Assembly: GCA_029339195.1 (NCBI GenBank)
Contig: JAPTJF010000279.1
Coordinates: 19,641-83,640, forward strand
Direction of reading: 5' to 3'
DNA from: Micractinium sp. NFX-FRZ
Lineage: Eukaryota; Chlorophyta; Trebouxiophyceae; Chlorellales; Chlorellaceae
DNA length: 64,000 bases
Shown here: piece after piece, positions 853 through 55,400 of the stretch
How positions within the stretch are numbered: position 1 is the stretch's first letter
How the letters are laid out: the number at the start of each line of letters is the position of its first letter
The notes under the pieces: generated by a model
Databases searched by the model: none
What the model was told of the DNA's origin: nothing
Seen by the model: the letters and a program-made list of their open reading frames with translations, nothing else
Translations under genes and position numbers: made by a program

Positions 853-3800
853 ATGCCGCACACGGGCCGTCACGAGCATCTAACGAGGGCCTTGTGGTTG
901 TGCCTGGCGCTCACCGCCATAGCAGCGGTCGGCCTGCGGCAAGGCCGGCACGCCGCGCGCCGCCCGGGGCAGGCGCACAACCCACTCGAGCTCTGGAATG
1001 TGGGCGGCGTGCGGCTGGTACTATCAGAGGCGGCAGTTGGAGGCCCCAGCATCAGCTGCAATGTCTCTCAAATCCACGGCGAGGCTGAGTGGGTGGAGGT
1101 GACGTGGAGCGGGCTCCCAAGGGGTGAGCGAGCGGCGCTGGCATTTGCTTGAAGTACCACTGCAGGATAGCAGACACACCCTGCAATTGCAGTGGTGCTG
1201 CTACTGACTTGTTGGCTGTGGCATGCACCGCCTCTGGGCGGCTTGCGCCGCTGCTGGCAGGGCGCTGCGCTGCCACTGCCTCACCCCCCCGGCCGCGCAC
1301 ACACGCTGCTTCCGCACTTGCATCGTCCCGCAGCAGCCGTCATGTATAGATTTCTTCAACTTCCGTCCCTCCTGCAGGTCGCTACGACGACTACATAGCG
1401 CTCTACCCAGCAGGGGCAGACCCCACCCAGACAGCACCCATCAAGTACCACTGGGCGGCCCGCAGCCCCTCGCACATCTCGCTGGGCGCAGGCAGCGTGC
1501 GGTGCGTGCCGGGCGGTCCGGGCAGAGGCAGGGAAGGGAGGCGACAAAGGTGCTATCGGTGCTGTTTAGGCAGCAGATGAATATGCTAGCTAGGCAGCGT
1601 CTTTTCTCCTAGTACTGCAGCCAGTGTCATCGGATGTGTGTTCAGCTGCCAGGCACATGGCGCACCCAAGCCTTCCCTTCCACCCGCACGTTCCCTCCCC
1701 CACTGCCTTCCCCCCCTGCAGCTTCCGCGTCCTCAACATGCGTACCGACCTGCGCTTCGCCCTGGTGCGCAACGGCCTGCAGTTCCCCTCGATCGCCGCC
1801 TGGAGCGAGGCGGTGGCGGTGGCGCACCCCAACCAGCCCATGCAGGGGCACCTGTCGCTGACGGGGGCACCCGGGTGAGCGCAGGCGGTGGGGAACAGGC
1901 AGCGGGGAGGGAGGGAGAGAGGCAGCTTCGTTGTGATGATAGAGCACAAGTGTTGGAGTAAACTTAGTCTAGCAGTGCAGGGCAGGGAACGGCGGTCAGC
2001 TGGCCCACCTGCCCGCCTGTGTGGCTCGGCTTCTCTCCTCGCCTGGGCCACCCTCCATCTCACCCCTTTGCCGCCTCACTGCGCTCCCACCTGCCCTCCT
2101 CCTCTCTCCTGCAGGGAGGTGCTGGTGCAGTGGGTGACACGCGACGCCGGCAGCGCCCCGCTCGTGCGCTGGGGCATGCACAGCGGGCAGCTGGACCACT
2201 CAGCCCAAGGAGACAGCTTCACCTACAGCAGGGCCGACATGTGTGGCGCCCCCGCCAACACAAGCGGGTGGCAGATGGAGCCCGGGTGGCTGCACGGGGC
2301 GGTGATGGGCGGGCTGCAGCCGTCCACCCGCTACTACTACCAGTATGGCGACGAGGTGCGTGTGTGCCATGAGGTACCTTGCATGTGCATGCACTTTGTT
2401 GGGGTGAGAGGAGGTGCGGTGTTGTGAGTCGTGTTTCGGGCAGGGGCATCCAATTGGGCTCCTCGTACGTGGGCAGGTGGGCGGGAGGCGCAGGGCCGGG
2501 ACTAGTCGCGTGCCTGCAGGGGCGGTCACGCAGGGGGCAGGGGACTTCCTCTGGAGCGCACCGCTCTGCCCGCTTGAGTGCCCTGCCAGCCAGCCTGCCA
2601 GCCAGCCAGCCTGCCTGCCCGACCCATGTGCGCACGCCCTCTGCGCCATCCCGCGCCCTCCATCCCCCGTCCGCAGGAGCTTGGGTGGAGCGCGGAGCAC
2701 TCGTTCCTGTCCCCGCCTGCTGTGGGCCGGGACTCCTCGGTGCACCTGCTGGCTGTGGCAGACCTGGGGCAGGCCGAGGAGGACGGCAGCATGGAAGCCA
2801 GCGAGATGCTGCCCTCCCTGCTGACCACCGCCAGGCTGGCGCGGGAAGAGCAAGCGCAGCTGCTGATTCACAACGGGGACATATCATGTGAGCTGTGTGT
2901 GGGCATGCCCTCTGCTGTCGGTGCAATCATGCTCCTGCCGGGAGCGCTTCTCATGTATGGGTGGGTGAGGCCCGCCGGAAGCCCCCGCCCGCCTGTCTGC
3001 TTGGAGGCCGCCCATGGAGGCCGCCCGCTGCCGAGCCCTGCATGGCGGCCCGCTTCTTCTGGATTGTAAAATTAAAAGCGAGCTGGCCCTCCCTGCTCTG
3101 CCCACCCTCCCCCTGCAGATGCGCGCGGCTTCTCCTCGCAGTGGGACCGCTACTTTGACCAGCTGGGCCCCGCTGTGAGGCGCATGCCCTACATGACCAC
3201 CGTCGGCAACCACGAGCGCGACTGGCCCGCCAGCGGCGACCGCTTCCCGGCGCAGGTGCGCATGATTTGGTGCTGCCTGTTGCCGGCCTTTGCGCTGGAT
3301 CCCGGCAGCTTCCTTGGGAAGCTGACCAGCAGTTAGGGTTTGCTTGCTGCCCTGCCTGATTCCCTGTCTCTCTGCCCGGCCGCTCAACCACCCACCTGCT
3401 CTGTCCTAGCTGACCTCCTCGCCCCACCTGCCCTGCCGTTTTATGCCTTGCCACCAAAACCCCGCCCTCTCTTCCCGCCCACCCGCAGTACGACAGCGGC
3501 GGCGAGTGCGGGGTGCCGTACTATGTGCGCACCCGCATGCCCACCCCCTCCCAGGACCGCCCCTGGTACTCATTTGACTTTGGGCCCATCCACTTCTTAC
3601 AATACTCAACCGGTGAGTGTGTGTGATGCACTGTTAGGGTGGGTTATGGGCTATGCTTCTAAGTGCAATCGTGCCCAGGCGGTTGCGCGGCCATCCACTT
3701 TGTCGCGGCTCCATGTGAGTGTATAGTCTCCTGGCTGGATGCCTGGTTCTGTGCGGCATCACACCCTGCATCCCCCCGCCGCCTGTCACCTCCAACTTCT

Positions 3801-5202
3801 TTCCACCCCACTCACCTCACCCCTGCCTCGCCCCCGCCTGCACAGCCCCTCTGTGAGCCGGCCAGTGACCCGCACCTCCTCCCACCCACCGCTTTCTTCC
3901 CCACCTTCTTCTTACCATCGTTTCCCCCACCCATCCACCCACCTCGTCCCACAGAGCACCTGTTTGAGCCAGGCAGCGAGCAGCACGGCTTCATCGAGGA
4001 AGACCTGAAGGCTGTGAATCGCAGCGTGACGCCCTGGGTCGTCGTGGGCGGCCACCGGCCGGTGAGGAAAGGGCAGGATCCTTCGGGCCAGGGGCGTGCT
4101 TGCTGGGAGGGTGGGGTCCGTGCCACGCCCGTGGGGCGGGGCAGTGGTGGGTGGCCGCTGGCCTGTGAGATAAGAGGCAGCCACGAGTGGAGGCACGGGC
4201 GGAAGGCGCGGAGGTTGGGCTGGGGGCGCAAGGGAGTGTGTGGGTTTCGTACACTGCACCTCAGGTGCTCAGCCAACCTTGGGATCAAGCTTGGCAACTT
4301 GGTTACGCCCTGGGGTCGTGGGAGGCCAGGCCGGCAAGTGAGGCCACAGGGAGGCTGGCTCTTGGCCCGGCTGGAAGGTGGGCGGGTGACGAGTGTTAGG
4401 GGCGCGGGGTGGGCGACGGAAGCTGTGGCACAACAGGGGGATGCGGCCTCCCCGCCGCCAGCCTTCCCCCGCGCCTGCCACACCGCACATTGTTTTGTTC
4501 TGTACCGCAGCTGTACATTGACAGCACCTTTTACGGCATCGTGCCCGACGGCGACCAGTTTGTGGCCAAGCAGCTGAGGGACAGCCTGGAGGAGCTGTTC
4601 TATCGCTATCAGGTGGGCCCAGGCAGCATGTGTGCTTTTTGTTCCGGTGTGGGAGTGAGCGGGTGGGTGGGGGTGGGGGTGAGTCTGACAGACAGAGTGC
4701 TGGGCTGCCGTTCACGTGGAGGAGCTCTTCTACCGCTATCGGGCCAGGCAGCGTGTGTGCTTTGGTTTGATGGCTGGGGTTGATGACAGGGCTTGAGGGC
4801 TGGAGCAGCTCTCATTTGAAGAGCTTGGCCTGCCCCGCCCATGTTGCATGCTTGCCTGCCGCCTGCGTTGTGTCCCCGCCTGCCTGCCTGCCTGCTGCCC
4901 CTTGTGCCCGCCAACCGCCGCTTCAACCCGCCCCCGCCCGACGCCCCATCCCTGCACTCCCCTTCTTCTATGCCCCATCCCGCAACAGGTTGATGCCACC
5001 TGGCACGGCCACCACCACAGCTACCAGCGCACGTGCGAGGCATTCCGCGGCCGCTGCCTGGGCCGCGCCGCCGATGGCACCGCCAACGCCCCGGTGCACC
5101 TTGTCATTGGTGGGTGGCTGGCTGGGGGCTGCTGGCTGTGCTCTGCTGCTGGGGGCTGCTGCTGGCTGTGCTCTTCTGCAGTGGGCTGCTGCTGGTTGCT
5201 GC

Positions 5203-5280
<78 letters not shown>

Positions 5281-14056: not shown

Positions 14057-14823
14057 TTAGGCCCCGCCGGCGGGGGCGCTGCCGGTCGTCCCGGTGCCAG
14101 CGGTGGCGCCGCTCTTTCCCGCCATGGAGCGAGCCATCTTCTCGAGCTCGCCCCGCTCAACCACGCCCGTCAGGTCGGCCCCACGGCCCTGCATGGCGGC
14201 ACACGTAGGTGGGCAGGAGGTGAGTTGAGCAGTGACCAGCCAGGCAGCAAGCATCTTCTGCAGTTTGTTCCGCCCTAAAACGCCTGTCAACCTGCACCAC
14301 GGCGGATAGGTGAGGTCCCTGGCAGGTGAGCAGGGTGAGCAGGCGGGCAGCAGGCAGGGAGCCTGGAGGCGGCAGAGGCAGCCTAGGGCAGGGAGGCAGC
14401 GGAGGTGTAGCATGCAGGCGTGGTGGAGAGGCAGGGAGGGGGGTCACACAAGCCGAGTGTGGTATTGCCAGAGGGAGATGTGCCGGCGGTGGGTCCCATC
14501 CAAGCAAAAGTGCCCCTTCTGCACTCACCTCCAACCACTGCTTGAGTTCATGTGTCTTCATGTGGTGGAACTCGTCATCTGGTCCTGCAACCGTGGCAGA
14601 TGGTGGGACAGATAGCCGCTGAAATGGGGAAGACTTGATGCGGGGAAGACAGCCTGGGGTACTGCACAGGCGCCGCCCGCCCGCCGCCGCCTTCTAGAGG
14701 CGCCATACACCACCCAACCGCCGGGGACCCGAGCCCGCGCCGCTGCCTTGGCAGCGCACCGAAGTCGCCGACGTGCTCATAGGGAGTGTGGTGCTTCTCC
14801 CCAAAGGCTCCGGCAGCCTCCAT
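14057..14823 (-). CDS. Small SAP-like domain protein, tandem copy 1
   Basis: Exons on the minus strand: 14823-14760, 14584-14529, 14188-14057; 83 aa. The protein begins MEAAGAFGEKHHTPYEHVGD. It then has FHHMKTHELKQWLEGRGADL and TGVVERGELEKMARSM, and ends in a Gly/Ala/Thr tail. The pattern of two helices around a short RGA loop resembles SAP-like folds such as the C-terminal domain of MANF/ARMET. The same motif ends the DnaJ protein at 49.2 kb (MSVHDLKGFIASRGAKLEG). Its function is unknown; nucleic-acid or chaperone association is only suggested by the fold. It is a clear paralogue of the next gene. Intron 2 contains a decayed duplicate of exon 3. Confidence 0.7.
14225..14305 (-). repeat. Ghost copy of terminal exon in intron 2 of the SAP-like gene
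   Basis: Minus-strand reading LTGVLGRNKLQKMLAAW corresponds to the real exon's LTGVVERGELEKMARSM. The nucleotide match is also clear, with one or two indels. It sits just upstream of the true exon 3 (14188). It is either a dead duplicate or a rare alternative exon. Confidence 0.7.
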
Positions 14824-18669: not shown

Positions 18670-21600
18670 ATGCTGAGCTTGTGCGGAGTGCTGGCGGAGC
18701 GGCTGCTACGGGAGACCACTCTCCGCGCTGCCTCTCAGCAGCTCGTCAGCCTCAGAAGTTTTGGGATCGGGTTCGCCGCCTCCGAGGCCCGCCGGCAGGG
18801 CGGCAGCCCCTTCAGCAGGGGCCGGCACACTGCCGCTGCCGCTGCCGCTGTCGCTCCGGCAGCCGCCACCCCACGCCACTCTAGCCTGCTTGTGCTGCAC
18901 CCTGCCAGCCAGTCGCAGTACAGCCTGCAAGAGGGCATCCGACTTGGCGAGTCACTCGCAGGTACGGTCTGTGTTGAGTGAAAGATGAGCAAGGGTGCCC
19001 TGCGTGAGCGGCAGCCTTCTTTGGGAGAGGCTGCCAGTACAAACGCTGAACTGCTGCTGAACCTCAAGTGTTGCTACACTATTCCTGTTGAATGATACCC
19101 TCCCCTTGGCGCCGCATCTTACTCCTCCATATGCCTACCCTACAGGCGAGTCGCCCGACTATGAGTGTGTCGGCTCCGCCCGCCGCTTGCGCGCCTCCCC
19201 TGCCACCTTCTTTGGGAGCGGGCAGGTGGAGGCCCTGCTGGCACGCATCCACGTCACCAACCCACAGCGGTGCGTGCCCAACTGCGACAGGTTGTGGATC
19301 TTGTTTCGCTTGGTAGCATGGTGTTGGCTGAGGCCGGCTGGCATGCACACACGCCATAGAATCCCCAGCAGTGCGTGCCCAACCGCACACACTTCCAGCC
19401 GCCTGTTTTGCTTTGTAGCATGGTATGGGCACAGGCTGGCTGGCATGCGCACATGCCACCAATCCCCAGGGGTGCGCACAACTGGTCAAGGCCTCCGCCT
19501 GACAGCACATCCTGGCCCTCATCTCACCAATCGCACACCAAGCTGTCCCTCTCATCCCACACTGCACACCTCCCGCCACCCTGCAACTTGTTTAGGGGGC
19601 ACGTGCAGCCAGGCATCCAGCCACTCTGACATGCACACACACAAAACCTGCGGCCCTGATGACTCTACCTGCATGCCCCCTCCCTGCCCCCCCGCAGCGT
19701 GTTTGTCAACCACGCGCTCTCGGGGGTGCAGCAGCGCAACCTGGAACGCGCCTGGGGGCGGCCCGTGCTGGACCGGGTGGCGCTCATCATCGAAATCTTC
19801 AGCCAGCGGGCGCGCACCGCAGAGGTGGGGGGGCTTTTGGCACTGTTGAATGCATGCCTTGGTTGTTGAGAAGGGGTGGGGGACGGGTCAGCGCATTGTT
19901 GATGAGGATGGGTTGAAGCCGGCTCAGCGCATGCATGGTTCAGGAGGGCAAGGTGGAAGATGGCTCAGGGCATGTGCGAGGTGGGCGGAGGGGTGGAGCC
20001 CCAAACAGGTGCCTGCCCGCCTCCCCTTGCTCCGCCGCAGGCCCGCCTGCAAGTCGAGCTGGCCTGTCCACGTAATACCTTACCTCTCACAAATTCCTTG
20101 CCTTCAGTGGTTACGGTTCTTGGTAGTTCATGCTCAACAGACTACTGAGCAGCAACCTATCCTGCCCTGCACACCCACACATCACCCCTGCAGGCCCGCC
20201 TGCAAGTGGAGTTGGCTTCCCTGGAGTACGCCGCCTCCCGGCTGGTGCGGGTGGTGGATGCAGCCAGCGGGCGGCGCACCGCGTTTGGGCTGGAGGGGGA
20301 CACCGAGGTGGTGTCGGCACGGGAGCGGGGGCGCAGCGGCAGCGGGACGGGTGAGTGGGCTGGCTGGCAGGGTTGAAGGCGGGACAACATTGGGGTGTTG
20401 GCGCGGGAGCGGGGGCGCATTGGCATCGGGACGGGTGGGTGGGTGGATGTCTGGGTGGGCTGGTTGGGTCCGAGGCGACAGGGGTGGTGTGGTGGGGGAG
20501 GGCAAGAGGCGCAGCGGCAGCGGGGCGGGCGAGTGGGTGGGCTGCCAGGGTTGGAGGCAAGACAAAAGTGGTGTTGGCACGAGAGTGAGGGTGTAATGGC
20601 ACCGGGGCAGGCAGGGGTTGGGCAGGGTCGCAGGCGACACACGGTCGGTGTCAGCATGAAAGCCGGGGCGCAGCGGCAGCAGGACATGTGGGCGACCATG
20701 CAGGGCAGCCAGGTGGGGCAATCAAGAAGGCAGGTGGGTCGGTCAGCAGTTGGGGCACGTGATGCGGGAGCGTGGGGCTGCATGTGTGTGGGATCTTGGG
20801 GTGGGGCACACAGGTGCAGGCGGGGCGCTGTGCCTGGCAGGGTGCAGTGGGGTGGCGGTCCGTTTCTCTGCGGTGTGAAGGAGCTCGCGTGTGTGCTCCA
20901 TCTGGCGGAGCCTTGCTTGGCAGCTCTGCAATGCCACGATCCCTCTGCACTGCGCTGCGCTGCGCTGGGGCACACCCACCTGCCACTCTGACCCCTTCGC
21001 CCTGCGCTTCGGCGCCCTCCTACCTCGCTTCCCGTGGCGCAGGCGGCCTGGGCGGCGCGGGCGGGCAGGGCGAGAGTGAGCTGCAGCTGCAGCGGCGGCG
21101 GGTCGCCGACCGGCGCAAGCAGCTGCAGCGGAGGCTGGAGCAGGTCAGGAAGACGCGGGCGGTGCAGCGCGCGGCGCGGCAGCGCAGTGGCAAGCCGCAG
21201 GTGGGGCGGGCTGGGATGTGAACGGAGGGCTGGTAGTGAGCAAGGCGGGGAGTAGATCGGGTTGGTAGTGGGAAGGGCTGGTAGTTGAAAGGGTGAGAGG
21301 GTTCGGCGTGGGCTGTTGGGCTGGCGTGCAGGGAGGGTGCGGAAAAAGGGCGGTGGCTTGTAGATGCAGCGCTACACCACAGTATGGGTATTCGTGCGTA
21401 AACAATGCAGTCGGACCCCCCTGCATCCCTGTTTTCCTGCCATCAAAACACCCCCAGATCGCCATTGTGGGGTACACCAATGCGGGCAAGAGCTCGCTGC
21501 TGAGCGCGCTGAGCAAGTGCGGGGAGGCGGGGGTGGAGGACCGCCTGTTTGCCACGCTGGACCCCACCCTGAGGTGAGGGGAGCGCGGCAGGTTTTTTTG

Positions 21601-32440: not shown

Positions 32441-33899
32441 GGGGCAGGGCAGCTTAGGGCGGGTGATGTGCTGGTGGTGTGTCAGGGCCAAGATGCCTGC
32501 AGGACAGTGTCTGTGTTGTTGTGAATGGTCAGGTTGGCAGGTGTAATGCTGCAAAGGGAATGGCCAGCGGGGCAGCGCCAAGTCGGCGGGTGGGTGGGTG
32601 GCAGCACTGGCGGACCAGCTATCTTGCTTAGAGCGCCCTCGTTGCGGCAATTGCTCGGCTGTCAGGCATTGGAACGTGGTGCTGCCGCAGGTGAGGCACA
32701 GCCAGGCGGGGACTCTCCCAAACCTGCGAGAACGGTAGCTTCAGTGTGCACTTAGCGTGACTCGGACCCAACGGTAGTATTGCCAACTCGCGATTGAAAT
32801 GCAGTGCGACCCGATTGGGACCGCGGCACCTGCGATCCTATTTGCCAAGTACCTCTCTTGCCAAGTCAGCAGGCGCAACCGCTCCTTGCCAAGTGGCGCC
32901 TCAGCACGCCTGCCGCATATGTGCCCCACTGCATTTGACAGCCTCGGGGTGGTAAATACCCTGCCACTCTGCACACACATGCACAGCGAATGGGTTTATC
33001 TCGGCGCTCAGCATGTGTTGTCTGACGCATGGCAGGCTGACCCCTCGCACCCGCTTGCACCGCAGTGTGTGAGTGCTTACAGCGCGGAGTGCTGCTCATG
33101 GCAAACAAACCAACTATCCTAGAAGGCACAGCAGGGTGGCAACAAACGGCACAAGGGGAGCAGAGTGCGCTTGTGAGGAGGTGCGCTGCAGGGGGCAAGT
33201 TCCCAGAATCCCAAAAGCGACGCCAGCAGGACAAAAAAAAGTGAGTGAGTGATACAACGAAATATGGGGAGCAGGGGGCGCAAGCGCCAGGCCACAGAGG
33301 AGGGAGGGGCAGGGGTAAGTTGGGAAATTGGGGCGGCACACCGGAGGGAGGTGCCACACCCTGTCTGCGTGGGGTGGGCGGGCGGTGTATGGATGTCCAG
33401 AGAGGGCCGTGGCATGGCAGCACTGCCACACATCAGTATGGCCTGGCTGGTGCCCCGAACGCCACGGGCAGCCTGCGTGGGCGGCTGCCGAATGAAACCA
33501 AGTGAGGTGCGGGAGGCGGCTCCCGCGGGCGGCGAGGCGGGGAGCCGCCCCCGCCCTCTCCGCCGCGGCAGCGCCTTGCTGCACCTATTGTCAAAACGGG
33601 CCGCGGCGGGCACACGTGGGGTGGGTGCGTGCCAGCAACACGGGGTGGGTGAGGGGGTAAGCTAGTAGTACACAGTTTCGACCAGGGGCTGGGGCGCCGG
33701 CGGGCCCGCCCAGGGCGCCGGGCCGGGCCCCACCCGCGCCAGGCCGACAAGCCATCCGTTTTCCAAAACTGCTGCTGCGCTGCCGCCGCCGCTGCTGCCG
33801 GCGGTGCTGCTGCTGCGTCGGGTGCCGTGAGCGTGGCGGGCGGCGGTCAAAGCGGGGGGCTGCTGCTGCTGCAGGCAATCTGCTGCAGGCGGCCGCTGC
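32441..33899. other. Intergenic region between TENA start and PDK stop
   Basis: About 1.46 kb. It holds the TENA promoter and 5' UTR and, from about 33100, probably a long PDK 3' UTR. Overlapping minus-strand frames of 150-190 aa occur but have no motifs and no supporting splice pattern. Confidence 0.5.
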
Positions 33900-36800
33900 T
33901 CACGGCAGCGGCTCCTGCACATTGCCCAGCCGATTCAAGTGGAGGTAGGCGTCTGCAGGGCAAAACGGAGCGAGGCAATTGTACAGCCAGTCAGGCGGGG
34001 GAGGTGCTGCTTGCACACGAGCTGCGGGCGAGCGCCTGCAACTGCATGTCGCTGCCCGCTGGTGTGTGGTGGCACTCAACTGCATCACACTACCAACTGC
34101 CGTCGCCTTGGGTCCGGCGCCAGCACCACTTGGCGCTCCGGCTGCCCGTGCCATGCCCGGCAGGTGAGGCACAGGCGGGCCGTCCACCTTGCCGGTCCCA
34201 CCCCAACCAAGAACAGCCGGAATGTTCTATTTGTGGCCCACGCCCACCTGTGCCGTACCCCTCCATCGAGATGATGGACAGATCCCCCCCAAAGTAGCGG
34301 GCATACAGCCGACTGATGGGCAGGCCGTAGCCGTAACTGCAGGGTGCAGGCGGGGCGTGGGAAGGGCGTGGGAGGGGTGGTGAGCGAGGGCGCAACGGGT
34401 GAAGCGATGAGGCAGGGCAGGGCTCATGTCTGCGTCTGCGCCACAGCTTCAATCTGTCAGCATCGACAAGGATCGCTGCCCTCTTGCTACAATGGCTGCC
34501 ATCCCCCAAGCAACACTGCTGCCCCGGCTGCTCCCACCGACTTACGCAGCCCTGCGCCCCGCACTGCATCTGTCGCTGCCCTCTGTCGCTCGGCTACATT
34601 CTCCCCAAAGCAGCAGCACCCCTCCCCCGCCATCCCCTACAGGGCTCACTCACCCCGCCAGCACCGACGGCCCGTCGCTGCCCTCTGTCGCCTGGCTGCG
34701 CTCCATTTCATCCAGCGGGCTCTTGGCGGTGGTGTACAGGTAGGTCCACATCTTGGGCAGGCCGCTGCGCGGGATGCCGCCGCCCTCGTCAGACACCTGC
34801 GCAGCAGGGGGGGGAGAAGCGGGTGGGGGTGAGATGCGGTGGGGTTGCAGCAGGCGGGATGCCGCCGCCCTCGTCAGACACCTGGGCAGGGAGGGAGCGC
34901 AGGTTGATGGCAAGTCCTCCTTCCCCCTGTGCCAGCACGGCCCTCGCCAACACCCAAAACCAGGTGTGCAGACACCCACAGCTGTACGCCCCTCTCAGGC
35001 ACCTTGATGGTGATGTCCTCCTCCCCCTCCGCCACCACCAGGCGTATCGGTGGCGGCTCGTTGTCAGCGTCGTCAAACCGGTCGTGCACGGCGCGCAGCG
35101 AGTTCTTGACCAGCTCAAACACCTGAAGCACATGGGGGTGGGGGGCGGGACATGCGTGAGGCATGCACAAAAGAGGTTGTGCACGGCACGCAGCAAGCAG
35201 AACCGCTTGTTAAGGTGGGACACATAGGGGAGGTGCTGTGGTGAGACTGGGAGGCAGGAGAGAGACGCAGGCAGCCACCAATTCAGTGTGCTTGGCCGCA
35301 CACGCGTGCTCCTGTACCACCACGCCTGCTACTCCCAAGCACCTCCTTCGGCCCCCGTCATGTGCCCCCTCGCCACCCCCGCCCCAGGCAACTCGCCGCC
35401 TCACCATGTGCTGGAGGTGTGACGGGGCGTGGGGGACTAGAACATAGTGTTCCCCGCACACCGCCCCTCCCTTCTCTTCCATACTCTCTGGCTTCAGTAG
35501 CCTCTATACTCAACGCACTCCCACACCCTCACACCAGCTGCACTGCTCACCATGTGGTGCAGGTGTGAGGGGACGTAGGGGAAGGTGAAGGAGGGGTCTC
35601 CGTACACCGTCACCTCGGGCGCCCCGCCCTTCTCCCGCATGCAAATGGAGCGCGCGTCGTCAATCGCGTCCTGGCACACGCCCGCGGGGCTGCACTTGGT
35701 GTCAATCAGGCCAATGTGGTTCTCGCGCTGCACAGGCAGGGGCACGAGTAGCAACAACACAAGTTCAAAAAGGCGTCTGCCAGCAGGAGGTGCGAGGGTG
35801 GTGCGCTTAACATCGGCGGGGCTGACGGGGTTGCCGAATGAACGGGGCAGGGGCGGGATGAATGGAGGATGCAGCGGCTGGACGTAGCGGCGGTGGGAGC
35901 ACAGCGGTTTGGCATGGTGGATGTCACGAGTGCTACGCGGGCACGTCATGCTTGCTGCGGCATGATATGCATGCTGTGGTGTGCTGCCCTATGGGTTACA
36001 CTGCCGGCTTGGCAGCTCGATGTGCTGGCTTACGAGCAAGAACACCAGGCATGGCATGCACGGCATGCATGCTGCTCAGTGCTGCCCTGCCCAGAGCACC
36101 GGCGATGCGTGTAGCGCCCTGTTCTGTTCTAAGCGATGCGCAGCAGGCATGACACGCACGGCATGCACGCTAAGCTGCCTACCCTGCGCACCGGCGGCTC
36201 ATGCAGCGCGATGTGCTGGCCTATGAGCATGCGGATGCCGATGCGCGACATGTAGAAGCCGTCCAAGAACTGGGGAGGGGGGCAAGGGAAGAGGATTGTA
36301 CACTGTGAGTGTGGTGCAAGGGCTGGCGGGGGGCAGGCATGTGTAAACGCTGGGGAGGCTAGGGGACACAGGGGGTGTGAGCTGCTGGTGCTGTGCAGGT
36401 GTGCGCCCCCACGAACCTCCAGCCTGCTCTGCCCAGCCTGCAAACTTCCCACACACCCACCCACACTCACACATGCAGCCAGCTGGTGGCGCCGGGCAGC
36501 GCCTCCACCCCAAAAGACCCTCCTGCTTGCCCCGCCAGCTGCACTCGGCACGCATTCCTCCTTGCACACACAGTCATGAAAGGCCCCCCCCAGTGGCATG
36601 CACCCACCTGGTGGATGTCTGGCAGGTCCTCCACCCCAATTGTGCGGCTCAGCTCCCGTTTGAGCTCTGCAGGGGGTGTTGGGCGGGGGGAGCAGCAGGG
36701 GAGGGAGGTGAGCAGCTGGAGGAAGAGCAGCAGAGGCAGTAGGGCAGGCAGCGGCAGCGGGGCGCATAGGAGCCACCCAGCGGCTCCAACAACAGGCAGG

Positions 36801-38294
36801 CAGGCAGGCAACGCAGGCGATAGAGAGCTCCAGAAGATGAGGTGGCGCACCTGCCACGCCCATGGCCATGACGGGCACCACGTTGGTGTGGCGGCGGTAG
36901 ATGTGCTGCAGCAGGCGCGTGAACTGGAGCTCGTCGCTGGCGTCGCGCACCTGCGGGGCGGGGGGCATGAGAGATGCGTCAGCATGCAAGGGACGGCAGG
37001 CAGGCACGTGCATGAATTGAAGGTCGTTGCTGGCGCCGCGCACGTGGCGGGCAGCGGACGAGGGCAGGAGAGGCAACCGGCACCGGCAGCAGGCTGGGTG
37101 CAGCAGCAGGGCAGCCACGCAGCTGGCAAGCAGACCCCCCGGAGCTTCCTCAACAGCGCAGTTGCCGCTGGGCATCCCACGTTTGCTTCCTGCCCACGTG
37201 CCCCTGCAGCAGCACCCACGTCCAGCCAGTCGGCCCACCTTGGGGAAGCTGCGCAGCTCCCGGAAGGACTCCACATACCAGTCGCGGACCTGCAAGGGGG
37301 GGGGAGGGCGACGGGCACACAAAAGGTTTGGGAGCTTGATCACACAACAGAGTTACCGCAAGAAGCACAGGGGAACAGGTGGGGCGGGTCAAGAAACAGG
37401 TGAGCGCAGGCACACTGGGTGCAGGGGCGCTGCTGTGCGCTCGGTCAAGCTTTGGGTGTTCTTTAGCGCACAGGTGCCGCGGAGGAGCAGCTGAGAGAGG
37501 GATGGTAGGCGCCGGCAGCACCCATAACACAGCATCAGGAGACAGGTGGGCACAGCAGTCTGCTGTGGCAACAGCGTGACAAGCTACAGTGGCATGAGCT
37601 GCATCTGCTGACTGCAGCAGCCGCTGCATTGCCTGGTGCACAGCAGGCCGTACTCGACTCAACCCCCGACATCTCCCAAGCCCTCTGCCCCGCCAGTGCA
37701 GCCCACCGCCCCCTGCCCCGCGAGCAGCAGCAGTAGCCTTGTTCTAGCTCACTTCCCACCCCCCCGGCAGGCAGCCGCACCTTGAGCACGTGCGGCTTGG
37801 CTGACAGGCCGTAGGGCAGGTTCTCCAGCTCTGCCACGCGGTGGGATAACCGCACGGGCAGCTCGTTGTGCAGGAACTGCGCCGACAGGATGAGCTGGCG
37901 CTCAATCGGCTTGGACCCAAAGTCCAGCCTGCATGGGATACGGCGAGTCAATCGGTGACAGTGCTGGCGGGGCTTCAAGCAGGTGCAGGGAGGTGTGATA
38001 AGAGGGGCTAGGGCAGCGGCCCGGGGCGCCGCCATCGACCGCCGTCGCCCTGCCCGCCCAGCCAACCCCCTGTCACGTGCTCGACGGCGCTCACATGTAT
38101 TTCAGGCTCACGCCTGTCTGCTTCTTCAGCGCGCAGGCGAATATATCGTCGACCAGGGGCTTGCTGAAAGAGTCGGCCAAGCGCACCGACTGCGCCGCTG
38201 CGTGGCGTAGCTGCTTGGCAGCCAGGCGGCTGCTGGTGGCCAGTAGGGAGGCCATGTTTGTGAGCTGGGGAGCTAGCGCCGACGCAGCTGCCAT
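33900..38294 (-). CDS. PDK: Pyruvate dehydrogenase (acetyl-transferring) kinase, mitochondrial
   Basis: Phosphorylates and inactivates the E1 subunit of the pyruvate dehydrogenase complex. Eleven exons on the minus strand: 38294-38095, 37928-37781, 37289-37239, 36950-36851, 36666-36608, 36269-36183, 35727-35551, 35122-35003, 34796-34654, 34336-34248, 33952-33900; 408 aa. The N-terminal ~40 residues are Ala/Ser/Arg-rich as in a mitochondrial presequence. Family text: [54 protein letters not shown]. The GHKL ATP site is complete: N-box [14 protein letters not shown] (from about residue 275), G1 [11 protein letters not shown]2 [14 protein letters not shown]. The end [14 protein letters not shown] is PDK/BCKDK-typical. 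Several introns contain ghost copies of exon ends. It is head-to-head with SLX1. Confidence 0.95.
34855..34886 (-). repeat. Copy of PDK exon 9 start with acceptor, in intron 8
   Basis: About 30 bases identical to 34772-34801 (CGGGATGCCGCCGCCCTCGT, then CAGACACCTG). On the minus strand this duplicates the CAG acceptor and codons for VSDEGGGIP. It is an intact second acceptor about 85 bp upstream of the true one. Confidence 0.9.
35165..35200 (-). repeat. Decayed copy of PDK exon 8 start, in intron 7
   Basis: Forward GTTGTGCACGGCACGCAGCA resembles exon 8's GTCGTGCACGGCGCGCAGCG (35085-35104). It lies just upstream (minus-strand sense) of the true exon. Confidence 0.65.
35400..35482 (-). repeat. 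Decayed copy of PDK exon 7 end plus donor, in intron 7
   Basis: Forward CACCATGTGCTGGAGGTGTG and GGGGCGTGGGGGACTAG correspond to the exon 7 end CACCATGTGGTGCAGGTGTG and GGGACGTAGGGGAAGG at 35549-35590. The minus-strand peptide HLQHM matches HLHHM. Confidence 0.75.
36005..36130 (-). repeat. Decayed copies of PDK exon 6 end, in intron 6
   Basis: GGCAGCTCGATGTGCTGGCT and TACGAGCAAGAACACC (about 36011-36046) mirror exon 6's GCAGCGCGATGTGCTGGCCT and ATGAGCATGCGG. A weaker copy (GAGCACCGGCGATGCGTGTA) is near 36095. Confidence 0.65.
37018..37052 (-). repeat. Decayed copy of PDK exon 4 start, in intron 3
   Basis: GGTCGTTGCTGGCGCCGCGC matches exon 4's GCTCGTCGCTGGCGTCGCGC (36929-36950), about 90 bp away, followed by a destroyed acceptor. 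Confidence 0.7.
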
Positions 38295-38514: not shown

Positions 38515-41500
38515 ATGTCCGGGCTGGCGCGCCTGTTTGGCGGCCGGCACTCCATCTTCCATCTTGCCCACCAGAGGGCTTTTGGCTCGCCCTGCCGCTG
38601 TCTGGCAGTGTCGAGCAGAGCTGAAGGGTCCATTGAATCTGACGCCAGCGCAGGCGGCAGCCCAGGAGGCGCGGGCGGCAACGCCTCAACCACTGCCGCC
38701 GCTGCCGCCGCTGCCAGCGCACGCACAAGGCGGCAGGCACAGCCTGCCTCTGGCAGCGCGGCAGCCCGCCCCGCCAGGATGCGCGACTTCTTCGGCTGCT
38801 ACCTGCTGGAGAGCAAGAACCCGCGGGGCAAGGGGCGCTCCTATGTGGGGTTCACGGTCAACCCGCGCCGCCGCATAAGGCAGCACAACGGGGAGATTGT
38901 CAACGGGGCCTGCAAAACCAAGCGGTGAGCACTCCGCTTGTGGCACAGCCCTTGCACGGATGATTGCTGATAACATATACACTGGTAGTCAGGAACACTT
39001 GACACAGCTGTAATCTGTGAAGTTAAAATGTACCAATGGCTCCCTGAGCTGGGTGCTGGGCAAGGGCGCTGTGTTGGCCGTGCTGGCCAGCTGCTTGCCT
39101 GCTGAGGGTTAGCGGACCACAGTCCTGGGCCCGCAGTTCCCACTCCCAACCCAGCGCCCCGGCACATGCACACCACCTGACGTGCCGCCTGTGTTGCTGC
39201 CCTGGCCTGCAGTCTGCGCCCCTGGGAGATGGTGCTTGTTGTGTACGGCTTCCCCACGCAGATCCAGGCGCTGCAGTTTGAGTGGTGGGTGTGGGTTCTG
39301 TTGGGGGTTCCCGGGCGGGGTGGGCGTGCCGGCGCGTGAGGGTTGGGGTTGGCACATGCAGGTCGAGGTGCTGCAGCGATGAGATTGAGGTGTATGTGGT
39401 TTGGGTGGCTGGGAGTGTGGTTGTATGGGTGGGCAGGTGATGTGGTGGCACGAGGATGGGTGCGTCCGCACGCTGGATGAGGCAGCAGGGTCGCAGCAAG
39501 GGGCAACCAGCCAGTGGGTCGGGGATACCTGGGAGGCTGCAGAGGTCAAGGGTGCTGCTGACACAGTATTGCTGCAGGGGTGCTGCTCTTGAAGAACCGA
39601 CTGGGCATGCCCCGCTCGGTGCGCTGTGCTTATGGTAGTCAACGCCCCGCTCCCCCTGCGCGTACCCTGGGCTGCTCACACCCTGCAGGGCATGGCAGCA
39701 CCCCGAGAAGAGCCTGGACGTGAGGGCCATTGCAGCACGGCTGGGACGCCAGAAGCGCTACGGAGTGTCTGGCAAGGTGGGGTGGGGGCGGCAGGGGGCG
39801 TGCTGCAAAGTCGCTGGGCGCAGCTGTAAGGCAGGGCCGGGGAGGGGTGGGAACGGGGCCGGCATTTGGGGAGGAGGCGGTGGGGGGCGTGCTGCAAGGT
39901 GGATGGGTGCACGTGCAAGGCAGGGCCGGAGTAGAGGGAGTGGGCACGTGCTGGGCATTTGGGGAGGAGGACGCGCAGTGTTGCCACCGCTGCCGAGGCT
40001 GCCCAGCCACTCGTTCCCCTCCTTGCCTTGCCCCAGGTGCCGTTGCTGAATGACATGCTGTGCAGCAGCCATGCTACCCCCGTATCTGCCCTCTCAAACC
40101 CCCACACACTCCCTTCCTCGGAGTTGTATCTGCAGTCAAACCGATTGTCTCCGACACCCACTTCTCAACTGCTATCCCTGTCCACCTTGCCCCGAGTGCA
40201 GGTGCTGCTGCTGTTGGAGATGCCGGAGCCCTGCTGCTGCTACCCCTGTGCCAGTACCACTCCTGACCCTTGGTCCCTCCTCCCACTGATCTCTCACTGC
40301 AGGTGCTGCTCCTGCTGGAGATGCTGCGGGCGGAGCCGTGGTGCTACTACCCCCTCACCCTGCAGTTCCTGTCGAGCACGCACGCCGCGCTGCGCGGGCG
40401 CGGCCCGCCGCCGCCGGAGCACATGCGGGTGCTGGTGGCGCCCATGGAGGTGCGCTGCAGTGGGGTATGGACATTTGCAGCCTGTGGGAGGCTGGGGCTG
40501 CATGTTCAGAGAGAGCCTGGGCAGTTGTGGGCTGGTGGCGCCCTTGGAGGCGTGTGTCACAGGAGCTGCCGAGGCACCTGCTGGCTTGGGGATGCAGCCT
40601 TGGGATGGTGGTCGGGACGATGGAGCACATGCGGGTGCTGGTGGCGCCCATGGAGGTGCGCTGCAGTGGGGTATGGACATTTGCAGCCTGTGGGAGGCTG
40701 GGGCTGCATGTTCAGAGAGAGCCTGGGCAGTTGTGGGCTGGTGCCGTCCTTGAAGGCATGTGTCACAGGAGCTGCCGAGGCACCTGCGGGCTTCGGGATG
40801 CAGCCTCGGGGCGGTGGTCGGGACGGTGGAGCGCATGTGAGCGCTGGCGGCGCCCATGGAGGTGGGCGTCTGCCCTTGACAACAGTCTGGGAACCCGCTT
40901 GCTTCAGTGGTTTGTAGGCGCTGCTGCACGGCGGTGGCGGATGTGAGCCATAACACAATTCAGACTTGACCTGCCCCCTGCGTCTTTGTTTCCCTGGCTG
41001 CAGGCGCTGCCAGAGGCGGTGGAAGATGCGGAGGATCCGCCTGAGGCAGATGATGATGGGAGCCAGTCTGGGAGCGATGCAGATGGTGGGGGCGAGAGCA
41101 GCAGCATGCTGCAGCCGTCGCAGTCCGCCAGCATGCTGACGGTTGGAGGAGGAGAGGGGGCAGCGGAAGCAGCTCTCTACCAGCAGCAGCAGCAGCAGCA
41201 AGGGCTTCCTGGCCTGCATGGCGGCAGCAGCAGCGGCGACGACGACGATGGCACGTCACTGCTCCCGCTCAGCAGCCAGCAGCAGCCTGCAGAGGCGGCA
41301 GCTGGGGCGAAAGGCAAGGGTAAGAAGGGCGGCGGGGTGCGGGCCGCGGCGCGGGCCGCCGCTGCCTGCAAGCTGTGCGGCAAGGCAGCCAGCCGAACAT
41401 GGATCCCCTGCACGTGCGGCATCCGCACGCATGTGGAGTGCCTGGCCCGCCACTTTTTGCATCCTGAAGGGGGCCCCGGGGGCAGCAGCAGCAGCGGTAG

Positions 41501-43730: not shown

Positions 43731-46700
43731 ATGGTCCGCGAGACTGCCTACTACGACCTTCTGGGCGTTGCCCCAGGCGCCAGCGAGGCGGAGATCAAGA
43801 AGGCATACTACCTGCAGGCCCGCAAGGTCTGTCGGGCTGCCAGTGGTCGGGGGTTCAGACGCCACCACGCGGCCGCCGGCGGCTGCTGTGCTGCGCATGC
43901 TGCCCCTCCTTCTTCTGCTGCTTTAGCAGTCCAGCCAGCCGTTCTGCGTCTCATATGCGTGTTGCATGTTGTGTGTTTGTTGGATGTTCACTGCAGTGCC
44001 ACCCAGACAAGAACCCAGATGACCCCAATGCCAAGGCAAAATTCCAGGCAAGAGGCTGGGTACCCCACGAAAGGGACATGGATCAACTGGAGGGAGGGCA
44101 GCGTGGCGCGCCGTGTGGGCTCGGACCGCTGCCGATCGCTGCTGCCTCACTTCCAAGGCGTGTTGCCAGGCCCGCATGCCTGCCCGAAGCGCACTTTGCA
44201 CGTTCAGTGGTTGGCATCACGTCAACGGCGTTCCCTCCATCGCTGCAGGAGCTGGGCACCGCCAACCAACTAAGCAGCGGCCCTCCTGAGTGGGCGCCTG
44301 CACAAGCCACTCTGCCCTGACCTACCAAACAAACACACCATGCCGGGTCGTGTTTCCTTTCTTCCTCCCTGCAGGAGCTGGGCACGGACCGCCTACCAGA
44401 TCCTCAGCATCGCCTCCCAGAAGCGAGAGGCCATACCACATTATGCCCTGCCCTAACAGCACACGTGGGGCGTGTTTCCCTTCCTCCTCTGAACAGGAGC
44501 TGGGCACTGCCTACCAGATCTTGAGCGACCCCCAGAAGCGGGAGGCGTACGACCGGCTGGGCGCGGCCGGCGTCAGTGACACCCCGCTCATGGACCCGGG
44601 CGTGCTCTTTGGCGTGCTGTTTGGCTCCGACATCTTCGAGGACTTTGTGGGTGAGAGTTAGTTCGGGTGTACTGCTTGCTGCACAGCCCCTTACTGCTTG
44701 TGTGCCTCTTTGGCTCCGACATCTTCGAGGACTTTGTGGGTGAGAGTTCGAGCTGGGTGCAGTGTTCTGTACTGCTTGCTGCTTAGCCCTGCACTGCTTG
44801 TGTGGCTCTTTGGCTCTGACATTTTCGGGGAGTTTGTGGGCGAGGGTTTGCTGGTTGCAACGTCCTGTACTGCCTGTGCAGCCGTGCATCGACCTGCACT
44901 GCTGGCGACTCTGGTGGCCCACAGCACAGCCAGAGAGGGTCCAGCGGCACTGCAGCCCGTGTGCTGGCAAGCAGACCCCCTTGCCTGCCGCCTAACTGTC
45001 CCTTCATCATGTCCTAACCCTCATTCGCTGCTTCTCAACCTGTGCTTCTCACCCTCCGCTTTTCCCAATCCTCGCAGGCCAGCTGAGGCTGGCCACCATT
45101 GCCAGCCTGGCAGCCGAGGGCGGCGGCGCGCAGATCACGCAGGCAGAGCTGCAGCCCAAGCTGGTGGCGGCACAGAAGGTGGGCGCTGGGAGGTGGAGGT
45201 GGATCGGGGGTCCCTGTGCGGGCGAGGGGTGTGGTGAAGGGGACCAGAGGTGTCGCAGTGTGGCGGGCGGGTCTGCAGCTTCAAGCTGGTGGCCGCACGT
45301 GACAATGGGTGGGATTGAGTGCAATGGCCGAGAGCTGCCTCGGCTGCTGCGTGGGCCCAAGGGGCGATACGCGACCTGGCCACGCAGCTCCTTGGTTTTT
45401 TCTTTATCACATGTATAGCTGGCTGACTGGTTTAATAGCTCTGTGGTCCTCGCAAACACACATATGCACTTAACACACATGCATGTGTACTCCACACCCC
45501 TGCCCCCTGCAGGAGCGGGAGGCCAAGCTGGCGGCGCTGCTGCGCGACCGCCTGGCGCTGCAGGGCAGCCTGGGGCGGGAGGGGTTTGAGGCGCGCATGC
45601 GCCAGGAGGCTGCCCAGCTATCCAAGTCCACATTTGGGCCGGAGATGCTGCAGGTGACTGGGTGCGGTACTGTAGGTTTTGTTGTGGCAGCGAAATCGGA
45701 TGTGGACAGGCACCCGCCTTGGGTGAAGCGCTATGCTGCAGAGTGGTGTAACTTACTTGCCTGCTTCGTGTGCTTGCCGGGTGGCAACACCCAGGCCACC
45801 GTCTGTTAGCTGGCCTGCTGCTGGCCTGTGTGCCTGGCCTAGGCTGCCATGGCATGCATCCAACTCCCCACACTGATTGCATGCATGACTAGTAGATAGG
45901 CATCCACTCGTCAAGCTCAAGCTGCCGCCGCTGCCCCACCTCACCCCACCCCGCAGACCATTGGCTACATGTACTCCCGCGCCGGCGCCAAGGTGAGGGG
46001 CACGTGCCCACCCTAGGGAGGCTGCCAGAGGTTGAGCGAGGCGGGCACATGCGGCGGTGCCGGCGGCACCATCAGCGTGTGCCCAGTGCAGCATGCAAGC
46101 AGCGGGGGCAAGGGCTTGGACCAGGGCAGGGCTGCTTGGGGTGCTCCCCTGGAGTCCTGCCCATGCCCATGGTGCATGTTCCTTTCCTTCGCCTGCCCAT
46201 GCCCATGTTCATGTTCCTTTCCTGTACTGCCCATGGTCATGGTGCGCCTTTCTTTCCTTGGCCTGTCTTCCTTTCCTGTCTGCCCATACTCACGTTGCAT
46301 CTCCGTGTCCCTGGCCTGCTTCCTGTGCCCAGGAGCTGGGCAAGAACTTCAAGACGCTGGGCGTGGGGTGGGCCTGGGAGGCGCTGCGCAGCATGGGGCA
46401 CGGCACCAAGACAACATTTAATGCCGTCAGCGGCATCGTGGGCCTGCAGGTGTGAGGCATGCATGCACTCGTCTCTGCCCCTGCTCCGCACCGGCCCTGC
46501 CTGGCCTCTGCCCCTGCGGCATGCCCTGCTCTATTCCGGCCCTGCCTTGTCCCTACCACTGTGTCGCGCCCTGCTCCATATCGGCCCTGCCTTGTCCCCG
46601 TCTGTTTGCCACATCCTTCTCCATTCCTGCTCTGTGCTCATGGCAACCGGCTGGCTTCACGCTGTGCGGGCGGTCCACCTGGCACTTGTGCCCTGCTCTC

Positions 46701-46813: not shown

Positions 46814-46870
<57 letters not shown>

Positions 46871-52425: not shown

Positions 52426-55400
52426 TCAGCTCGCACCCAGGCCCGCAAACAAGTGGCCAGGGAGGTCTCCGGGCTGCAGGAGTGCCGTTCCACCAACGAT
52501 GATGCGCGGCGGTGCACGGGGCGGCGGATGGCTGCCGCTGCCTCCGGCGCTGCCTGCGCTGCTCACTTGTGCTGCCCGCTCGTCAACTGCCTGCATCACC
52601 TCGTGCAGCTCTGCAGGCAGGGCGGGAGGTGGGGCAGAAGCTTTGCAGGTGAAGTGCAGCGGCAGGCACAGCATGGGCCAGACAGGGCCGGCCAGGCACC
52701 CGCCAGGCTCGCGCCTGCACACACATGCACCTTCCCACTCATGCCCCTTTGCAGCACCCCCAGTACTGACAAGACGCCTGCTGCGCACCACAATATGCCG
52801 GCTGTATTTCCACAGCAGGCACCCATGCCCTGCCCACACAGCTGCCCTCTTGTGCACGGCCCCAACGCCGCACCTGCCGGGCTGATGCCCCCCAGCACAA
52901 CTAAGACGCCTGTGGCACACCATCCCATGTCGGCTGGCTTGCCACAGCAAGCAAGTACTACCTGCCCACGTGTGCATGCCTGCCAGTACGCACCTGCCGG
53001 GCTGACGCCCCCCAGCACAAACAGGATGACTGTGGAGCAATCCGAGGGCTTGGGCCCCGCCTGCAGGCCAAACCGCCCCAGCCCGCTCCTCAGCAGGCCG
53101 GACAGCGAGGTGGCACCGGCTTGAAGGTCGGGGAGGGGCTGGTCATGCAGAATCAGCTCTGCAACAACAGGCAGGAGGGGGGACACCCAGGAGGTACACA
53201 TGAGGAGGAGCGTGGTGTGGCAGCCCTGCTGCCTGGACTTCCCCACAATACCATGCCCTGCTCATGACCACAGCCTGCCAGCCACCCAGCGCAGCTGCAC
53301 ATCCGCAAGCATGGTGCATGGTGCATGGTGCCAACATGGGTGCTGCAAGCGGCTCCCGAAGGCTGCAGGCAGCCCACGCCCCTGCCAGCTCACCCTCCCA
53401 GCCCAGCCAGTCCACTCACCCGCAATCTGGCGCAGCAGGGGCGTGCGCTGCGGCGCGCCGTCCTGCCCCACCGCTGCCAGCCGCCCCGTGTGCTTCAGCA
53501 GGCTGCCTCGGAGGGCGGCCGCCTGCCGGCAGCGAGCCAGCAGCGCTTCAACCGCATCACCAGCCTCCAGCCGGAGCGCTTGCAGCTCTTGCGCAGCTTC
53601 GGCAGCTGCTGTGGCCTCTGCTGCTGTTTCTTTCACCCCGGCGCTGGTGCCGGCAGCAGCTGCTGCTGCTGCTGCCTTGGCTGCGGTCACCCGGCGGGCC
53701 AGCTGCTCAAGTGCCCAGGCCGGGGTAGCGCATCCGCTGGCCGCCCCTCCTGCCGCCTCTGCGCCATTGGCGCCACTGCCGCTGCTGCTGCTGCCGCTGC
53801 TGCCGCTGCTTGTGCTGCCAGCACTGCTGCCCGCCATGATCGCCTCGACCAGCGCCGCCGCCAGCTGCTGCTCCTGGGGGGGCGGGAAGGCGTGCCCGCT
53901 GTCGGCGCCCGCCATCCTGCAGGTAGGTAACAGGAAGGGGGAGGAGAGGCCATGAGTGCCGGCAAGCATGGGCCAAGCCGGCTACCAGGCTGCCAGGCTA
54001 CCTCCCAAGCAAGGCGGCCGGGCCCAGGGAGAGTGGTGTAGCCAGTGCCCAGCCAGCGGGCACAAGGAGAATCGGTGTAGCACAGTGGCAGCCAGAATCC
54101 CGCTAGTCACACAAGGCAACTGGCAAGCCACACCAGCGGCGCCTCACCAGGCAGGGTGGAAGCTGGGGAGCAGGCAGTAGGCTGCCAGCACCAGCAGCGC
54201 CACATCCGCCAGCTGCAGCGGACTGCCAGGCTGGCCTGCCAGCCGGCAGAGCTCCGCCAACTGGGCAGCCGCTGCGCCGCTGGACTCGGTGCAGGCAAAC
54301 AGCAGCTGCTGCTCCTCCCGCTGCAGCGCTTCCCAGCGCTCTGCAGGGGAGGTGGGCGGGCACGCGGGGTCAAGGCGGGGGCCGTGCAGTGGATGGAGAG
54401 GGGAGGTTGCAGGGCAAAGGGCAGGTGAGGAAGATGGGCGGACTGTGCTTGAGAGCGGGAGCAAAAGGACTATCGTACATCACCCTGCAGGCCACGGATG
54501 CATGCACCCCTGGCAGGTAACGCCGATTCCGACACATGCTCCACACACAGCAATGCAACATCACTGGCCCGCTGCAGGCGCACGCTTGCCTGCACACGCG
54601 CCCTCCATGGCTGCCGCCGCCGCTTCTGCAAGCTGCAGCAGGGAAGCGTGCCGGTAGGCTGCAGCGGGCGACTGCCGGCGCACCGCATCTGCTAGCACCC
54701 GCAGCTCCTCGGCACACACGCTGCCTGGCTTGAAGCGCTGCTGCAGCGGGGGCACGTTCTCCTGCAAAGAAGCGGGCAAAGAAGAGAAGGAAAGCCAGGG
54801 ATTGGCGGTGGAAAGGGCACTAGCAGCCACCCATGGGCATGCGGTGCAGCAGCAGCCAAGCAGCTGCACACAGTCGCTATTCGAGCAAGCTAGGAAGCAG
54901 CTGGCATGAAGCAGTCCGACCGCCGCCCACCTTCCTGGCTGCCTCTCTGAGCCACTTGCGGATGAAGAGCGGGCCGTCCCGCCCCTTGCGGGTCAGCAGG
55001 AACTCCAGCCAGCGCTCTGCCTGTGGGCGGGGACAGCCAGCGGGAATGAGGTGGAATGTTGGAAGCGGCGCTGTTGGGCTGGGACATGGGTGGTTGAGCT
55101 GTGAGTGGTGAGGTGGGCGGGGGCAGCATTCTTAGCATTTCAAGGGGAGCAGATGTGCATTGTGGGAGAAGAAGGGCAACCACGCAGGGCAGCAGGGCAG
55201 GAGCGCAGGCAGCAGAGCGCAGGCGGACGCTGTCAAGCCAGTGGCAGCGGGTGTGGTGCCCAGATCCCACCCACCTGCGCATCGCCGCCATGCCGCAGGC
55301 TGCCGGGCAGCAGGCTCAGAGGGCCTCGCCCGGACGTGCCCGCTGCTATGCTGCTGCTGCTGTTGCTGCCATCCTCGCCTGCTGCGGGTGCCCCTCCATC

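Follow-up and report, generated by a model that had tools for sequence, protein, structure and literature searches.

Intron gain by tandem duplication of exonic sequence has been described, as excerpts of two articles relate (PMC4974935, PMC2891723): a short duplication arises within a gene, the mRNA stays unchanged through the choice of splice sites, and the copy is free to decay. Here we analysed a stretch of 64,000 nucleotides from the green alga Micractinium sp. NFX-FRZ (positions 19641-83640 of contig JAPTJF010000279.1, here C279; hereafter the window) together with other stretches of the same assembly, and found that the predicted introns of many genes contain copies of the edge of their own adjoining exon, mostly including the splice site. 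These copies would share the above features of intron gain, but there a new intron is formed from exon sequence, whereas here introns that are already present seem to lengthen, and each copy bears a pre-existing junction.

Other described systems are related in part. Intron sliding in Drosophila, as outlined in an excerpt of PMC2891723, is alike in that additional or cryptic splice sites close to a junction have a bearing on the choice of site, but in Micractinium the exon boundary is predicted to stay and the extra sites are intronic. In the stwintronisation of Lipomyces, according to the excerpted text of PMC7138796, donor duplications of 4-7 nt in few introns, for which repair of staggered breaks was proposed, lead to nested introns. 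Both systems involve duplication at the donor of an intron that already exists, but here the duplicates measure about 110 bp, affect roughly one predicted intron in ten and are found at both intron ends. Introner elements (PMC9860276, in part) likewise change intron content genome-wide, but they represent one sequence family across genes, whereas the copies reported here match their own exon and not other introns.

In Micractinium the edge of a coding exon and its splice site form part of the repeated unit, and one of the copies remains within the predicted coding sequence, which sets the unit apart from minisatellite arrays. Such arrays consist of head-to-tail units at a near-constant period, and in this respect they resemble 8 of the 11 multi-copy junctions described below as well as a larger unit at 40416-40864. 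The present pattern was not described among the literature matches listed, a comparison that lay outside the genome paper of Chlorella variabilis NC64A; that paper may mention exon repeats in introns, so that novelty is uncertain. The excerpted part of the Coccomyxa genome paper (PMC3446292) contains nothing on exon-edge copies in introns.

Exon edges recur in their own introns

The analysis covered 304 kb of nuclear DNA, made up of the window together with 15 further stretches of the assembly (66 Mb, 838 contigs), which came from 14 other contigs and the start of C279 and in which nothing had been chosen by eye beforehand. Contig C838 (120 kb, with 34% GC in its first 10 kb and an intact rbcL) was regarded as the plastid genome belonging to this assembly. 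Gene models were obtained with a small self-trained hidden Markov model (HMM) gene finder, which was trained on these 304 kb and permits GT donors only; all introns and genes mentioned here are therefore predictions. The HMM called 596 introns with a strong consensus (CAG/GTGAG at donors, CTGCAG/G at acceptors), and the 505 with both flanking exons of at least 30 nt were kept.

At least one copy of an adjoining exon edge was found in 51 of the 505 introns (score at least 18). With a score of at least 16, the last 60 nt of the upstream exon matched their own intron in 36/505 cases and the downstream exon matched with its first 60 nt in 33/505, compared with 21/2525 and 14/2525, respectively, for other introns cut to equal length. 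Similarity of introns to their own exons was thus far higher across the sample than to random ones, a check that a preliminary description of the window had proposed. The reverse complement of the own intron gave 0/505 and 2/505 matches at this score, and exon nucleotides 61-120 from the junction gave 2/505 and 2/505, with exons that were too short scored as no match. At a score of at least 18, exons of at least 120 nt matched the intron on their wrong side in 1/360 cases. The own intron was matched in 23/204 exon-edge comparisons inside the window and in 32/806 outside of it, compared with 0/1322 and 4/5046, respectively, for other introns of the same gene, none of which lay within 700 bp and all of which had at least 0.8 of the length of the own intron. 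Exon-edge copies shared among unrelated introns were not found beyond these low counts, either between or within genes; general intron-to-intron sharing was not searched.

Probes of 40 nt spanning a donor had a copy downstream in 7.24% and upstream in 0.41% of cases (score at least 16), those spanning an acceptor had one upstream in 6.32% and downstream in 0.81%, and matches to other genes amounted to 0.10-0.15%. This is the arrangement that the preliminary description had reported by eye, with donor-side copies downstream of donors and acceptor-side copies upstream of acceptors. A banded self-alignment, with 19% of bases masked as low complexity, yielded 158 events at a score of at least 20, as opposed to 10, 7 and 13 in three cross-gene nulls built from predicted genes only; 71 of the events were exon-intron (59 loci), 47 intron-intron, 36 exon-exon and 4 intergenic. 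All nine genes for which copies had first been reported held at least one, although the one in the SAP-like gene was weak (score 20, identity 0.69), and the range from identical to barely recognisable was borne out.

Anatomy of the copies

The probe signal peaked at the junction and vanished once the centre of the probe lay further than 60-80 nt inside the exon, with the exception of a few matches 140-200 nt past acceptors, which may be coding repeats. Nearly all copies had direct orientation, and most reached the junction and carried the splice site; a few self-alignment events took in a short exon entirely. Between probe and copy the lag was 70-130 bp in 85 of 136 events of all types. In the self-alignment the lag had a median of 112 bp at plain donor events (32) and of 126 bp at plain acceptor events (17). 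Where several copies followed one junction they tended to lie head to tail at a near-constant period, as in minisatellites: spacing was near-equal and mostly about 100 bp at 8/11 multi-copy junctions (100/106, 115/115, 89/100, 122/126, 101/101, 126/135, 69/78/81 and 92/98 bp), whereas single-copy cases give no spacing.

The lag was a multiple of three in 28 of 37 exonic repeats, compared with 30 of 66 exon-intron pairs. Tandem repeats within predicted coding exons, mostly in frame, were seen for instance at window positions 53774-53827 and 55423-55805 and at 21936-22356 of the C2 stretch. In the C600 stretch a tandem array (7088-7441) contained two near-identical exon ends that were both called exons by the HMM, one of which is probably a decayed copy mistaken for an exon.

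Decay, splice sites and reading frame

Mismatches between exon and copy were spread evenly over codon positions 1, 2 and 3 (0.218, 0.234 and 0.218; 95 events), as in neutral decay, and coding constraint on the copies was not seen. Among copies with an exon identity of at least 0.7, GT was retained in 18/32 on the donor side (21.0 expected neutrally) and AG in 19/27 on the acceptor side (18.5 expected). The spare splice sites that the preliminary description had expected are supported, and 15/32 donor and 12/27 acceptor copies scored above the 10th percentile of real splice sites. Hypothetical use of the inner site in the 37 copies with an intact GT or AG would introduce a stop codon in 20 and a frameshift in 12, while 5 would stay open. 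Whole extra exons with both splice sites and an open frame, as expected from duplication of mutually exclusive exons, were not found among these copies, which represent exon edges with a stop or frameshift in 32/37.

The PDK gene offered a view of the predicted mRNA. Spliced at the outer sites, its product was collinear with the proteins of three relatives across five copy-bearing introns, with only small gaps. Identity was 92-93% to Micractinium sp. CCAP 211/92, 90% to Chlorella ohadii and 84% to Parachlorella, values by which the alga, judged from this one protein, seems to fall within the Chlorella group, and differences were limited to the N-terminus, a two-residue excess (a predicted exon of 6 nt) and short gaps in Parachlorella. 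This collinearity is consistent with the earlier statement that the copies leave the mRNA unchanged, and likewise predicts that the outermost site is the one used, which at the RNA level stays a prediction.

Intron length and distribution

The 51 copy-bearing introns had a median length of 369 bp compared with 222 bp for 412 copy-free introns (both scores below 14; 42 intermediate introns excluded), a difference (p=7e-17) in agreement with the proposed lengthening of introns by the copies. Copies were present in 0/68 introns shorter than 150 bp and in 16/41 introns of at least 400 bp. Longer introns give more room for matches, yet the length-trimmed controls remained below 1%. The mean intron length was 255 bp in this sample, while means of 206 bp in C. 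vulgaris and 179 bp in Auxenochlorella are given in the excerpted text of PMC12636532.

Copies were unevenly spread by the exon-edge test, which found 0/122 copy-bearing introns in the stretches of C2, C50, C100, C200 and C500, which were named after the fact, and 51/383 elsewhere, and none of 2000 permutations was equally uneven. With self-alignment the same five stretches did contain 8 exon-intron loci (4, 3, 1, 0 and 0), compared with 51 elsewhere, or about 2.2 and 4.2 loci, respectively, for every 10 kb of intron. The five stretches were comparable to the others in their mean splice-site and coding scores, some lying at the low end. Adjacent introns both carried copies in 15 pairs, with 4.5 expected, an excess that is partly due to shared exons. 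The suggestion of a genome-wide habit is supported in so far as copies occur beyond the window, while the two tests differ on how evenly they are spread. An extrapolation to the whole genome, uncertain and clouded by this unevenness, would roughly give some ten thousand introns.

Copies in the window

The copies found in the window are listed in Table 1. A Pfam search with four spliced products returned purple acid phosphatase (PAP), PDK, TENA, HflX-type GTPase and DnaJ-X domains. The labels SLX1, SCFD2, SAP and Cys-rich were taken over from the preliminary description as provisional names; as no coordinates per gene were given there, placement of the SAP-like gene at 14057-14823 and of the Cys-rich gene at about 27121-27702 is our own reading.

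Table 1. Exon-edge copies in predicted introns of the window, with the exon segment that each resembles.
Gene	Feature	Position	Strand	Exon segment	Score	Identity	Remarks
PAP	acceptor-side copy	3844..3875	+	3955-3986	16	0.75	weak
PAP	donor-side copy	4302..4335	+	4026-4059	21	0.83	
PAP	donor-side copy	4704..4740	+	4573-4610	20.5	0.79	flank after copy resembles intron start
SAP-like	acceptor-side copy	14247..14303	-	14129-14187	20	0.69	label of preliminary description
HflX-like (upstream part)	donor-side copy	19310..19369	+	19212-19268	17		second copy 101 bp on; copied junctions 19371, 19472; spacing 101/101
HflX-like	acceptor-side copy	20041..20063	+	20194-20216	19	0.91	
HflX-like	donor-side copy	20374..20434	+	20291-20350	35.5	0.80	
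HflX-like	acceptor-side copy	20475..20529	+	21043-21102	23.5	0.73	repeat-rich, weaker
HflX-like	donor-side copy	21655..21711	+	21514-21571	28	0.76	
Small Cys-rich	acceptor-side copy	27473..27511	+	27600-27637	23.5	0.82	label of preliminary description
TENA	acceptor-side copy	31010..31049	-	30887-30927	23.5	0.80	
TENA	donor-side copy	31386..31415	-	31537-31566	30	1.00	30/30 identical
TENA	donor-side copy	31849..31875	-	32055-32082	20.5	0.89	
	acceptor-side copy in 91-bp predicted intron	33859..33892	-	33771-33804	16		gene model doubtful
PDK	donor-side copy	34556..34595	-	34661-34697	21	0.80	
PDK	acceptor-side copy	34840..34881	-	34754-34796	29.5	0.86	AG kept; core 0.95
PDK	donor-side copy	34904..34938	-	35004-35038	19	0.81	same intron as 34840..34881
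PDK	donor-side copy	36005..36038	-	36195-36229	21.5	0.83	copied junctions 36099, 36001; spacing 92/98
PDK	donor-side copy	36483..36513	-	36608-36639	18.5	0.81	
PDK	acceptor-side copy	37000..37043	-	36908-36950	24.5	0.80	
SLX1-like	acceptor-side copy	40202..40246	+	40303-40353	27.5	0.78	label of preliminary description
SLX1-like	donor tandem array	40416..40864	+	40416-40449			206-bp unit, 2.2 copies, 93% over period 206; exon segment recurs at 40622-40655; copied junctions spaced 100/106
DnaJ	two acceptor-side copies	44249..44439	+	44497-44553		0.72, 0.83	exon-part identity; copied junctions 44249, 44375; spacing 122/126
DnaJ	two donor-side copies	44702..44840	+	44614-44650		0.97, 0.83	exon-part identity; copied junctions 44740, 44840; spacing 89/100
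DnaJ	donor-side copy	45254..45298	+	45129-45173	21	0.76	
SCFD2-like	donor-side copy	52874..52925	-	52994-53043	30.5	0.81	GT kept; label of preliminary description

The array in the SLX1-like gene apparently has an internal history, as its 206-bp unit would consist of two older subunits of about 100 bp (older subunit at 0.78), and the later duplication of the whole unit at 93% suggests successive rounds. In the DnaJ gene, exon 43997-44047 seems to end at a GC donor (cag/gcaaga), which would make the intron with the acceptor-side copies (44048-44496) one of the GC-AG type; since the HMM permits GT donors only, this exon was missed and the intron was called as 43827-44496. A satellite-like array at the contig end (63381-64000), whose unit, GGCAGCATTTTCCCTCAGGGAAAACGT, measures about 27 bp or, on another reading, 80 bp, was excluded from the duplication counts.

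Origin of the copies

We consider it somewhat probable, with moderate confidence, that the copies are remains of recurrent tandem duplications of about 110 bp that spanned exon-intron junctions and of which the inner copy decays. The underlying mutation might be slippage, or else repair of staggered breaks by fill-in. Splicing would continue to use the outer site, so that the exon keeps its original length, as exon definition would choose; the inner copy, now intronic, would decay, and fixation would be possible through the unchanged mRNA. Tandem duplication across a junction would explain that most copies include the junction, that they are direct and placed towards the intron, that they are often evenly spaced and that they accompany longer introns. 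The intron flank beside the copy also resembled the intron at the real junction (empirical p<=0.05) in 24/68 cases (16/36 donor, 8/32 acceptor) with about 3.4 expected, in a test that did not demand exact register, offered fewer than 20 controls for some rows and dropped one of 33 acceptor rows as too short.

Several observations weigh against this reading, among them that in young copies similarity often stops at the junction. Among 29 events with an exon-part identity of at least 0.85, 20 had at most 8 aligned intron-intron columns, while simulation with equal rates of decay in exon and intron parts gave 28-34%. To approach the young-copy data, intron-native sequence would have to change several times faster than exon-derived copies. 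At two to three times the rate, such short events made up 36-56% of simulated events with identity of at least 0.9 (63% at five times the rate; observed 10/15), and 52-77% at 0.85-0.9 (observed 10/14); for 0.8-0.85 the model gave 57-78% (47% of the 17 events observed), and for 0.6-0.8, the oldest class, 65-82% (seen in about 10/23). No single faster intron rate therefore fitted every age class in this comparison, which took in 69 of the 71 exon-intron events. Among 34 copied junctions with an exon identity of at least 0.8, the exon side was at 0.86 and the intron side at 0.66 (16 donors) and 0.68 (18 acceptors), with a baseline at unrelated sites of 0.58 and 0.62, respectively; four acceptor copies that are among the youngest (exon identity 0.92-0.94) did not exceed this baseline on their intron side (0.33-0.61). 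Even between pairs of copies that are both intronic, the exon part (0.79) exceeded the intron part (0.66) in 13 pairs, which had been picked by exon similarity.

In the 14 youngest events (identity at least 0.9) there were 7, 4 and 15 mismatches at codon positions 1-3, with the third in the lead, and the exon-intron lags modulo three were 30/23/13 and not flat. Two TENA copies ended 6 nt (31386..31415) and 20 nt (31849..31875) before the junction, and 3 of 11 arrays were unevenly spaced (59/92, 184/90 and 35/91). DNA that the HMM called intergenic (37 kb) contained 2 duplication loci compared with 7.5 expected from the intron-intron loci of the same stretches, which together with the patchiness hints, in a small sample, at a process dependent on region or transcription. 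Plain tandem duplication with equal decay is at odds with the young events, and a higher rate in introns improves the fit without matching every class. Of the model put forward in the preliminary description, local duplication across junctions with intron-side copies is supported, while the intron part of young copies is less similar than equal neutral decay predicts.

This mismatch between simulation and young copies slightly lowers our trust in tandem duplication and slightly raises it in a reading to which we nevertheless give clearly less weight, namely that only exon edges are copied, or that gene conversion from the real exon keeps renewing the exon part but not the intron part, with the result that copies stop at the junction. 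Abrupt loss of similarity in many young copies and the higher identity of the exon part even between two intronic copies would follow directly, and a process linked to splicing or transcription would explain the bias to introns and the low intergenic duplication rate. It accounts poorly for the resemblance of the flanks in 24/68 copies, for the regular spacing at most multi-copy junctions and for two young events in which a long tandem copy extends over 195 and 212 intron-intron columns, respectively. A donor copy in C600 moreover has six bases in common with the original, including a departure from the consensus (gtgctg).

That selection retains the copies for gene regulation, in the role of alternative or decoy splice sites, appears unlikely. 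The fraction of copies scoring like real sites would fit such a role, but GT and AG were retained no more often than neutral decay predicts, codon-position constraint was absent over the 95 events, and use of the inner site would mostly lead to a stop or frameshift.

Capture of spliced mRNA by reverse copying into introns is very improbable. Many copies do stop at exon boundaries, and the sequence ahead of one acceptor copy in C20 (junction 8386) bears some likeness to the end of the upstream exon (p 0.08). Beyond the copied junction, however, the spliced neighbour exon was matched (p<=0.05) in 0/27 acceptor and 4/32 donor copies, two of the latter at one junction. These values are near chance and largely refute this explanation, and the splice sites were mostly copied as well. 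Equally small is the chance we assign to Rogers-type intron gain, in which duplication of an exonic AGGT segment leaves the intron flanked by both copies, although it involves the same type of mutation and is known in other eukaryotes (PMC4974935, in part). Register-locked similarity above the 99th percentile was found between exon tail and intron tail in 4/505 introns (2.9 expected) and between exon head and intron head in 4/505 (3.4 expected). The signature, at both ends and in register, was hence not seen as a general pattern in the 505 introns, where old gained introns could have lost it. Chance similarity, low complexity or assembly error, which a GC-rich genome with many simple repeats might invite, is hardly credible given the uniformly low other-intron, same-gene, inverted and wrong-side controls, the cross-gene nulls, and the divergence of most copies (a few are near-identical), which are therefore not assembly duplicates.

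Implications for intron evolution

Lengthening of introns is seldom visible, because intron sequence decays. At the junctions described here coding constraint fixes one copy, so that the other can be used as a clock for age, unit size and order of events in each intron. If tandem duplication across junctions is the correct reading, it would represent a source, open to measurement, of both intron growth and spare splice sites, and a natural test of outer-site choice by splicing in an alga. For gene prediction the copies would then be a warning, as decayed ones can be taken for exons. In a broader sense, and only tentatively, the process might be a duplication tied to introns or splicing that is biased to certain regions and repeatedly copies exon edges with their splice sites in steps of about 110 bp, by which introns of Micractinium would grow from their own exons and keep a dated record of their junctions.

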